A stretch of DNA of 64,000 bases from Bacillota bacterium (GTDB lineage Bacteria; Bacillota; Negativicutes; Sporomusales; Sporomusaceae): positions 1-64,000 of the forward strand of contig JAGGAB010000008.1 in assembly GCA_017889705.1 (NCBI GenBank). Reading direction: 5' to 3'. Numbering within the stretch: position 1 is the stretch's first letter; the number at the start of each line of letters is the position of its first letter. Of this stretch, positions 27,744 to 31,025 are shown one piece after another. Under the pieces are notes generated by a model, which worked only from the letters and a program-made list of their open reading frames with translations, did not search any database and had not been told where the DNA came from. The translations under genes were made by a program, and so were the position numbers.

Positions 27744-27928
27744 ATATGTTTCAACAACGATTTTGATTATATACCATGACTTAATTCTTTGTCAAGATTC
27801 TTTTTATGTCAGTGTTTTCTTTATACTCAGCTTTGTAATCGGTTTTTCCGAAAACTAACACCTGGCCGCACTCCCGCATATTATGTATCAGGCGAATCGC
27901 TAAGATTGCGCTACGGGAGGCTGATTAA

Positions 27929-29170
27929 TTGTATTATAATCTGAAAGAAAATTGCATCCTCATCGAAGGTGCCGCACGCGGAGCCATTTATAACTTAAAC
28001 TCTGGCCGGGTATATTCTATTAATCGCGGAGCCATTGATCTCTTAAAAGCCTGTCAGGCAGCAGCGATAGAAACACTTTTGGATATAGATGCCGAAGACA
28101 GCAAACCCTACTTATCCTTCCTTGATACCTTGACAACCAAAGACCTAGGTGCCTTTTATGTTACACTTCAGACCGAAGCGGCAACCCGCGTTTTTCCCTG
28201 TCAACAGCCACACTTAGAATATATATGGCTCGAACTCACTTCGACTTGCAACAATCGTTGCTTGCACTGTTATTGTGCTAGCAGTCCGGAAGTCCCCAGC
28301 GGTTGTGTATCACATAGCCGCTGGCTCGAACTTATAAGTGAAGCACACAGTGCAGGCGCCCATACTCTCCAGCTTATCGGCGGCGAACCACTGCTTTATC
28401 CCCAGTGGCGAGAACTAGTAATAAAAGCGCGGCAGGAAAACTATGAAACCATTGAAGTTTTCACCAATGGCACACTGATTGATAATGACTGCATCAACTT
28501 TTTCAAACAACATGAGGTCAGTGTTGCCACAACACTTTATGCTGCCACTGCCGCAATCCATGATAAAGTCACACTCCACCCCGGCAGTTTTGAAAAAACC
28601 ATGGCAGCGATAAATAAGATTTTAGCGAATAATATTCCGCTCCGTATTGCTTCTATTTTGATGAAAGTCAATGAACACGAAGCCGAAAATATTATGAAAC
28701 TTTGCAGTACACTTGGTGTAGAATCGACGCCGCCGGATATTGTACGCCCCACCGGACGTGGTGACGATCTGGATTTATTACCTACATCCTATGCAAAGCC
28801 ACCAATCAAACCGCCTTTTTTTACCGATCCACAATCTTTTGCCAAGGCGCAGAAATTCCACGGTTGTTTAGCCGGGCGTTTGGCGATAACAGCCTCCGGC
28901 GATGTCATACCCTGCATTTTTGCCCGCAATCAGATCTGCGGCAATATCATCAACACCCCGCTTCAAACTGTACTTGCTGCGAAGCCGCTAACCACGTGCT
29001 GGCAAACCACTAAGGACTGTATCGCAAAATGCCAGGATTGCGAATACCGCTATGCTTGTCCTGATTGCCGACCACTGGCACAAGGTACAGATCCCCAGAA
29101 AAACTGGTTTGCAACACCAACAGATTGTTCTTATAATCCATATACAGGAAAATGGGAGGATGTTACGTAA
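27929..29170 (+). CDS. Radical SAM/SPASM peptide maturase candidate
   Basis: TTG start after GGGAGG; CNNRCLHC rSAM cluster motif; C-terminal SPASM-type Cys (CQDCEYRYACPDCRP...CSYNPYTGKW); N-terminal about 80 aa resembles a PqqD/RRE-like leader-binding domain. Confidence 0.88.
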   Translation: MYYNLKENCILIEGAARGAIYNLNSGRVYSINRGAIDLLKACQAAAIETLLDIDAEDSKPYLSFLDTLTTKDLGAFYVTLQTEAATRVFPCQQPHLEYIWLELTSTCNNRCLHCYCASSPEVPSGCVSHSRWLELISEAHSAGAHTLQLIGGEPLLYPQWRELVIKARQENYETIEVFTNGTLIDNDCINFFKQHEVSVATTLYAATAAIHDKVTLHPGSFEKTMAAINKILANNIPLRIASILMKVNEHEAENIMKLCSTLGVESTPPDIVRPTGRGDDLDLLPTSYAKPPIKPPFFTDPQSFAKAQKFHGCLAGRLAITASGDVIPCIFARNQICGNIINTPLQTVLAAKPLTTCWQTTKDCIAKCQDCEYRYACPDCRPLAQGTDPQKNWFATPTDCSYNPYTGKWEDVT

Positions 29171-29487
29171 TGTCTGATAACAAATACAAAACCCCAAAAT
29201 GGGATACCCCAGAAATGAACGAGTGGGAAGATGAATTTGAAGAAGACAAGGTCGACGAACGTGTTACCACAGTAGGGTGCCGCCCCTCCTGGAGCCCCTG
29301 CCGCCCTACTCATCCTATCGGCTGCCAGCCTTCCTGGCCACCCTGCTTCCCTCGCCAGTGCTATCCCCGCCACTGTTACCCACGGCAATGTTTCCCGCAA
29401 CATTGTTACCCACGGCAGTGCAATCCTCGCCTGTGTTATCCGCGCATGTGTATGCCTGTCAAGCACCGTCCGTGTAATCCACTATAA
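29170..29487 (+). CDS. Cys/Pro-rich repeat peptide, candidate RiPP precursor
   Basis: ATG overlaps rSAM stop (TAATG); 105 aa; acidic Cys-free N-terminus then 12 Cys all in C-x-P, including CFPRQCYPRHCYPRQCFPQHCYPRQCNPRLCYPRMC; synonymous codon variety across repeats. Confidence 0.8.
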   Translation: MSDNKYKTPKWDTPEMNEWEDEFEEDKVDERVTTVGCRPSWSPCRPTHPIGCQPSWPPCFPRQCYPRHCYPRQCFPQHCYPRQCNPRLCYPRMCMPVKHRPCNPL

Positions 29488-30344: not shown

Positions 30345-30429
30345 TGGTGCGGGAGACAGGAATTGAACCTGCACGCCTCACGGCGCTAGATCCTAAGTCT
30401 AGTGCGTCTGCCAGTTCCGCCACTCCCGC
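30345..30429 (-). tRNA. tRNA-Leu (UAG)
   Basis: Minus strand GCGGGAGTGGCGGAACTGGCAGACGCACTAGACTTAGGATCTAGC...GTTCAATTCCTGTCTCCCGCACCA. Confidence 0.95.
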
Positions 30430-30557
30430 ATAAAGTTATAATACCATAGTTATTTTTTCATGTCAATAACCAAATTAAAGATGTTATGTTCATAAACTAT
30501 TTATTCTCCTTCTATTGCATAACAAAAATTCCCAAGCATATGCCTGGGAATTTTCGT

Positions 30558-30633
30558 TGGTGACCCACCCGCGACTCGAACGCGGGACACCCTGATTAAA
30601 AGTCAGGTGCTCTACCGACTGAGCTAGTAGGTC
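30558..30633 (-). tRNA. tRNA-Lys (UUU), copy 1
   Basis: Minus strand GACCTACTAGCTCAGTCGGTAGAGCACCTGACTTTTAATCAGG...GGGTCACCA. Confidence 0.94.
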
Positions 30634-30777
30634 GTCATATAAATACGATAGACTACAATACTGTCTATCTATAAAATGGAAGGAGTACACCCATTGAATA
30701 TAGGCGCAATAGATGACCCTTCAAAGCTACGTTAGTAGCTACCTCATCGTGTAAATAAGATAAACTATGAAGTAAGG

Positions 30778-30853
30778 TGGTGACCCACCCGCGACTCGAA
30801 CGCGGGACACCCTGATTAAAAGTCAGGTGCTCTACCGACTGAGCTAGTGGGTC
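30778..30853 (-). tRNA. tRNA-Lys (UUU), copy 2
   Basis: Minus strand GACCCACTAGCTCAGTCGGTAGAGCACCTGACTTTTAATCAGG...GGGTCACCA. Confidence 0.95.
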
Positions 30854-30949
30854 AAAAAAATAAAGATGTTCTTCGCTTGCGCTCAGAACTAAATGATTCA
30901 CTCAAGTTTTCGCGTCACTTTCATTCCTAAAAACTTGGTTCTCTATTTA

Positions 30950-31025
30950 TGGCAGGGGCGGCTGGACTCGAACCAACGCATGACGGAGTCAAAGTCCGTT
31001 GCCTTACCGACTTGGCTACGCCCCT
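30950..31025 (-). tRNA. tRNA-Gln (UUG)
   Basis: Minus strand AGGGGCGTAGCCAAGTCGGTAAGGCAACGGACTTTGACTCCGT...CGCCCCTGCCA. Confidence 0.94.

Follow-up and report, generated by a model that had tools for sequence, protein, structure and literature searches.

The window, by which we mean the whole stretch of 64,000 nucleotides that was analysed, carries on its forward strand a gene for a radical SAM/SPASM enzyme, followed by a short gene for a Cys-rich peptide and preceded by a promoter-like sequence. All of the evidence presented here is computational, and the features are the following:

27858–27887, + strand: sigma-K-like promoter, ACA at 27858–27860, then 16 nt, then CATATTATGTA at 27877–27887 (exact match)
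27929–29170, + strand: radical SAM/SPASM enzyme of 413 aa, predicted to modify peptides, starting at TTG (Pfam PF04055, PF13186)
27929–28165, + strand: PqqD/RRE-like N-terminal domain of the enzyme, residues 1–79, proposed to bind the leader (PqqD matches in homologues, predicted fold)
28232–28705, + strand: radical SAM core, C107-x3-C111-x2-C114 and GGEP 151–154 (invariant alignment columns)
28865–29128, + strand: SPASM region at the C-terminus; its 7 invariant Cys (alignment) would suit two auxiliary FeS clusters
29170–29487, + strand: C-x-P peptide, 105 aa, proposed substrate (ORF and peptide profile)
29170–29277, + strand: acidic, Cys-free leader of the peptide, residues 1–36, with the motif PKW-x2-PEM-x2-W (homologue alignment)
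29278–29484, + strand: core of the peptide, residues 37–105, 12 Cys, all in C-x-P (motif count, shuffles)

The ORF of the enzyme opens with TTG at 27929 and closes with TAA at 29168–29170, and the last base of this stop codon is also the first base of the ATG of the peptide at 29170. The 12 Cys of the peptide (positions 37, 44, 52, 59, 64, 69, 74, 79, 84, 89, 94 and 102) are each followed by X-Pro, and from the fourth to the eleventh (59–94) they keep a strict period of 5; in 200,000 shuffles of the core the mean was 2.9 C-x-P and the maximum 10, against the 12 observed. The period-5 units are written with differing synonymous codons. In these respects the locus is as the original prediction had described it, its coordinates, one-base overlap, sequence, acidic N-terminus without Cys, C-x-P count, period and codon differences all having been re-derived unchanged. 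In addition, K10, W11 and P14 of the leader are invariant in 19 peptide homologues, and a Pfam search with the window peptide matched no family. On the 5′ side of the pair lie a tRNA-Gly and then tig, clpP and clpX (the last three judged by their ORF translations), on the 3′ side a convergent gene for a membrane protein, and genes of the bacteriocin-cluster kind (transporter, protease, immunity) are not seen beside it. Past the pair, at 30345–31025 of the window, there is a cluster of tRNAs (Leu, two Lys with the same anticodon, and Gln), and the short ORFs called there are spurious.

In the enzyme, Pfam finds both of the domains that had been predicted, Radical_SAM (PF04055, 2.2e-19) and SPASM (PF13186, 1.1e-5), and in an alignment of 29 sequences, distant paralogues included, the Cys of the CxxxCxxC motif (C107, C111 and C114) and the SPASM Cys 313, 329, 368, 371, 377, 380 and 400 are invariant; in other words, the window enzyme has the pattern of a SPASM radical SAM peptide maturase (CxxxCxxC together with a 7-Cys SPASM). 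It reached no equivalog cut-off in a search of NCBIfam. As to the leader-binding N-terminus that had also been proposed, 8 of 15 homologues match PqqD through this domain, the best at 6.5e-4, but the window protein itself has no such match, and in a fold search with a model of the domain (moderate, pLDDT 64) the lasso-peptide RRE TbiB1 and CteB ranked at the top with sub-significant values (E 0.26–0.5). Its secondary structure is predicted as bbbb-aaa. Comparing profiles of this domain and of the SCIFF maturase that the genome also encodes gave no support (12.9% probability), and a PDB sequence search with the domain as query gave nothing useful. On balance, this domain is taken as likely to be an RRE. 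The AlphaFold model of the full-length enzyme, made from four sequences, was too poor to be used (pLDDT 44), and an apparent selenocysteine in some homologues was rejected, the internal TGA being merely the stop codon of the enzyme ahead of the next gene.

The nearest enzymes of solved structure by sequence are SkfB (6efn, 6e-26) and CteB (1.5e-13), both of which form peptide thioethers. The likeness to the sactipeptide maturases SkfB and AlbA extends to biology, SKF being also tied to sporulation; in contrast, the system in the window has no bacteriocin-type cluster and its precursors are dispersed, and with the NCBIfam equivalogs for AlbA, SkfB and StsB the enzyme scores 63–76 bits against cut-offs of 300–850. 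With SCIFF/CteB (six Cys in forty-five residues; TIGR03973/TIGR03974) it has in common a radical SAM/SPASM enzyme with an N-terminal RRE (here putative), a Cys-rich neighbouring peptide and a lineage-wide distribution, but SCIFF is a single adjacent precursor that is not known to belong to a dispersed family, and it has its own maturase at a separate locus, alongside the C-x-P system, in 28 of the 28 genomes of the order. The possibility that the window enzyme is itself the SCIFF maturase was discarded, TIGR03974 not being among its best 25 NCBIfam matches and the TIGR03974 gene of the window genome (G000) lying at G000:C99, where the SCIFF peptide GGCGECQASCQSACKTSCTVGNQVCQKQA is found just upstream of its own maturase (L101). 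Ranthipeptides of the PapB or freyrasin type likewise combine Cys-rich repeats with a radical SAM/SPASM enzyme, but the CxxxD/E pattern, whose absence from the window core had been pointed out from the start, occurs at only 20 of the 1025 Cys of the family described below, and membership of that class was rejected. The grasp-with-spasm SPASM protein TIGR04193 is similar in the C-terminal SPASM (104.9 bits, below the cut-off of 175), and no ATP-grasp partner was seen near the window pair. Judged from its sequences, the system works like a leader-guided radical SAM RiPP that stands outside the ranthipeptides, SCIFF and the known sactipeptide maturase equivalogs, and in the open-access literature nothing was found on C-x-P radical SAM systems, on spore-coat radical SAM enzymes or on coats of Negativicutes that touches it.

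A profile built from the peptide found C-x-P genes both beside the enzyme and far from it, and a second profile, built from the distant ones, found more. These genes are scattered over the genomes that have the enzyme, most of them without adjoining it, and reach up to about 10 dispersed, non-clustered members per genome; the window genome has at least three, namely the window peptide, G000:C128:28331 and one downstream of G000:C11:19535. In 81 family genes, 1015 of 1025 Cys (99%) lie in C-x-P, where shuffled sequences give a mean of 217 and a maximum of 251, and the spacing of Cys is mainly 5 or 6. The 81 leaders are 34% acidic, contain one Cys in total, and in 77 cases carry a W..P motif with the consensus W(E/D)xPE(I/M)xxW(D/E). 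The cores consist of 18% Cys, 21% Pro and 14% Arg, with Asp and Glu almost absent; within the unit, an aromatic residue (F, Y or W) takes the X position in 61% and Arg follows Pro in 60%, although both of these positions vary widely, also in the paralogous cores with double-glycine leaders, and Cys and Pro alone are invariant. A conserved leader and a variable core next to a modifying enzyme, the mark of a RiPP, are what is found. Of the two-gene RiPP that had been proposed as a candidate, the functional pair stands and its stand-alone character does not, since the proposed substrates are a family spread over the genome, within a sporulation-linked regulon.

The window genome is Sporomusa-like, its named relatives being S. 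silvacetica, S. ovata and Sporomusa sp. KB1. An ortholog of the enzyme with at least 49% identity is present in 50 of 382 Negativicutes genomes (a set that includes incomplete ones); in the family the enzyme occurs in 12 of 12 genomes, and in the order in 27 of 28, G024 among these having a distant paralogue only. In a scan of plasmids from outside the class, the best match was a SPASM protein of the general kind with 32% identity. At least one C-x-P gene is present in all 50 genomes with the enzyme and in 4 of the 332 others (Fisher 2e-58), in a class survey that treated every genome alike, with profiles seeded from genes first found near the enzyme. Of those four, two (G024 and G105) are incomplete drafts that carry SpoIVA, and G229 and G243 give marginal matches. 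The sporulation marker SpoIVA occurs in 52 of the 382 genomes, and set against the enzyme it gives 47 genomes with both, 3 with the enzyme only (drafts, 65, 83 and 93% complete), 5 with SpoIVA only and 327 with neither, counts to which shared ancestry contributes; by this measure the enzyme is a gene of spore-forming genomes. In G012, G122 and G123, SpoIVA is present and the enzyme and C-x-P genes are both absent, so that sporulation genes can be carried without the system, and enzyme and C-x-P genes seem to have been lost together. The adjacency of enzyme and peptide recurs across the order and the class, and with the co-occurrence and the common promoter described below it upholds the functional pairing first proposed: the two have not come together by chance, nor do they make up an isolated two-gene RiPP.

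Several genomes bear on whether the enzyme acts in trans. In S. silvacetica (L010/L049) the start and core of the adjacent peptide are gone, next to an intact enzyme, and the genome has further C-x-P genes; at L020 and L024 no peptide follows the enzyme, likewise intact, and C-x-P genes are found elsewhere in those genomes. Both situations are as expected for action in trans. At L026 and L035 the C-x-P gene is found on the upstream side of the enzyme instead. The simplest reading is that one enzyme would serve all members of the family via their common leader.

A distant paralogue of the enzyme (L038/L123, genus g12; ~32–35% identity) comes right after several peptides that have a double-glycine leader, VEKLTDEKLDKVSGG, and in some of them a core such as GCQPSWSPCEPKGKVGC. 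Cores of this kind, for example GCQPSWSPCEP, resemble the GCRPSWSPCRP with which the window core starts. The combination of similar cores, a different leader and a related enzyme argues for the C-x-P unit as the target of these enzymes. Clusters of such peptides, with cores containing C-x-P, lie upstream of the paralogue at L123 (G025:C5:149000-156000), L037 and L039, and probably represent a separate, more bacteriocin-like RiPP system.

The enzyme operon and the scattered C-x-P genes have a promoter in common, AC(A/C) placed 16 nt before CATATTATGTA. This last element is found at 10 or 11 of its 11 positions before 47 of 53 dispersed C-x-P genes (expected 0.3) and before 28 of 34 enzyme genes (expected 0.12), and among 327 neighbouring ORFs used as a control there are 9 matches, 8 of which are alternative or antisense frames at C-x-P loci. 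In the window genome (5.0 Mb) the exact CATATTATGTA occurs at 7 sites; the enzyme or C-x-P genes follow 3 of them and a DUF2642 gene 1. In three other genomes too, where the ORF behind the motif can be assigned, it is often the enzyme or a C-x-P gene. The published consensus for sigma-K is [a/c]AC[a/c]-N16-CATA-N3-TA (PMC5749712), and in C. difficile, where sigma-K promoters drive coat genes, a −35 AC marks sigma-K and ATA marks sigma-E (PMC3789822). The −35 AC(A/C), the 16-nt spacing and CATA fit this consensus in most genes, while the −10 box CATATTATG departs from it at the last base; dipicolinate synthase A (dpaA, TIGR02853), being absent from 28 of 28 genomes of the order, could not serve as a calibration gene. 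Given the differing last base of the −10 box and the absence of dpaA for calibration, the shared promoter is taken as the result, and that sigma-K itself regulates the enzyme and the C-x-P genes is what we infer from it. The resemblance of the window promoter to those of coat genes in C. difficile brings the system near the spore coat proteins of Bacillus and Clostridium, although the C-x-P peptide matched no sequence family, and we know of no coat family that is paired with a radical SAM enzyme.

The explanation that we consider probable is that of a late-sporulation regulon, in which a single leader-guided radical SAM enzyme modifies dispersed C-x-P proteins in trans, these being destined for the spore surface. 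A sigma-K-like promoter would turn on, in the mother cell, the enzyme, the adjacent C-x-P protein and several of the dispersed ones; the PqqD-like N-terminal domain would bind the common acidic leader; and the radical SAM and SPASM clusters would carry out repeated rounds of chemistry on the C-x-P units, most likely on Cys itself or the position beside it, for example to give a thioether or another crosslink. The modified or crosslinked proteins, rich in Cys, Pro, aromatic residues and Arg, would then join the spore coat or an outer spore layer. Chemistry at Cys is favored because, apart from Pro, no other residue of the unit is invariant. This same point weighs against the alternative that survives best, in which the regulon is the same and the enzyme modifies Xaa, Pro or Arg, by epimerisation or by aromatic-Arg or cyclophane crosslinks: the frequency of aromatic X and of Arg after Pro would suit it, and SPASM enzymes catalyse several C-C crosslinks, but the wide variation at both positions makes it, in our judgement, unlikely.

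The proteins could also be purely structural and crosslinked by disulfides, in the manner of high-sulfur keratin-associated proteins, the enzyme modifying something else at the same developmental stage. Their composition and the remoteness of most C-x-P genes from the enzyme would agree with this, as would the weak resemblance of one family member to Keratin_B2 (E 0.25), but it leaves unaccounted for the complete co-occurrence with the enzyme and the joint absence from the SpoIVA-bearing G012, G122 and G123, the repeated adjacency, the common leader and the PqqD-like domain, as well as the paralogue beside similar cores with quite another leader, and we hold it to be distinctly unlikely. A spore-coat or structural family unrelated to maturation had been named at the outset as the case that would count against a RiPP, and this is probably half right, in that these are likely spore proteins, but tied to the enzyme. 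A secreted antimicrobial or signalling RiPP made in sporulation, a sactipeptide-like bacteriocin such as SKF of Bacillus, is brought to mind by the likeness to SkfB and by the double-glycine leaders of the paralogous clusters, but is improbable for a pair without adjoining transporter, protease or immunity gene, with so many unlinked precursors, conservation across many families rather than a patchy one, and a C-x-P leader that has no GG cleavage site. Metal-binding or redox-buffering spore proteins like metallothioneins, with ligands tuned by the enzyme, would explain the share of Cys in the cores but hardly its near confinement to C-x-P with a spacing of 4–6, nor so much Pro and Arg with almost no acidic residues, and are very improbable indeed.

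Returning to the late-sporulation regulon, its most far-reaching form, that of a diderm spore envelope built with dispersed C-x-P proteins which a single radical SAM/SPASM enzyme crosslinks in trans by a new C-x-P chemistry, is put forward tentatively, as a real possibility. The modification of peptides by radical SAM enzymes has mostly been studied in antibiotics and cofactors, and here it is apparently tied to the building of spores, with a single enzyme for many scattered substrates, which have a leader and a promoter in common; genome mining for RiPPs by adjacency alone misses most of the substrates of such an enzyme. If this is true, C-x-P would be a new crosslinking motif and the system a marker for sporulation in Negativicutes, as well as a way into the spore coat, largely unknown so far, of bacteria in which spores and an outer membrane occur together, and the products would be structural proteins made by radical SAM chemistry, not small natural products, in other words, a new class of modified developmental proteins.

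The promoter is also found before genes of other kinds: CATATTATGTA precedes the DUF2642 gene L147 (G000:C118:20339), the DUF2935 gene L151 (G009) and the DUF2935-like gene L098, which may encode further spore proteins. At G098:C1:2467800-2469189, three exact promoter motifs lie within 1.4 kb, with matches to the C-x-P profile nearby, at 2469494 and 2470697, which suggests a local cluster of C-x-P genes.
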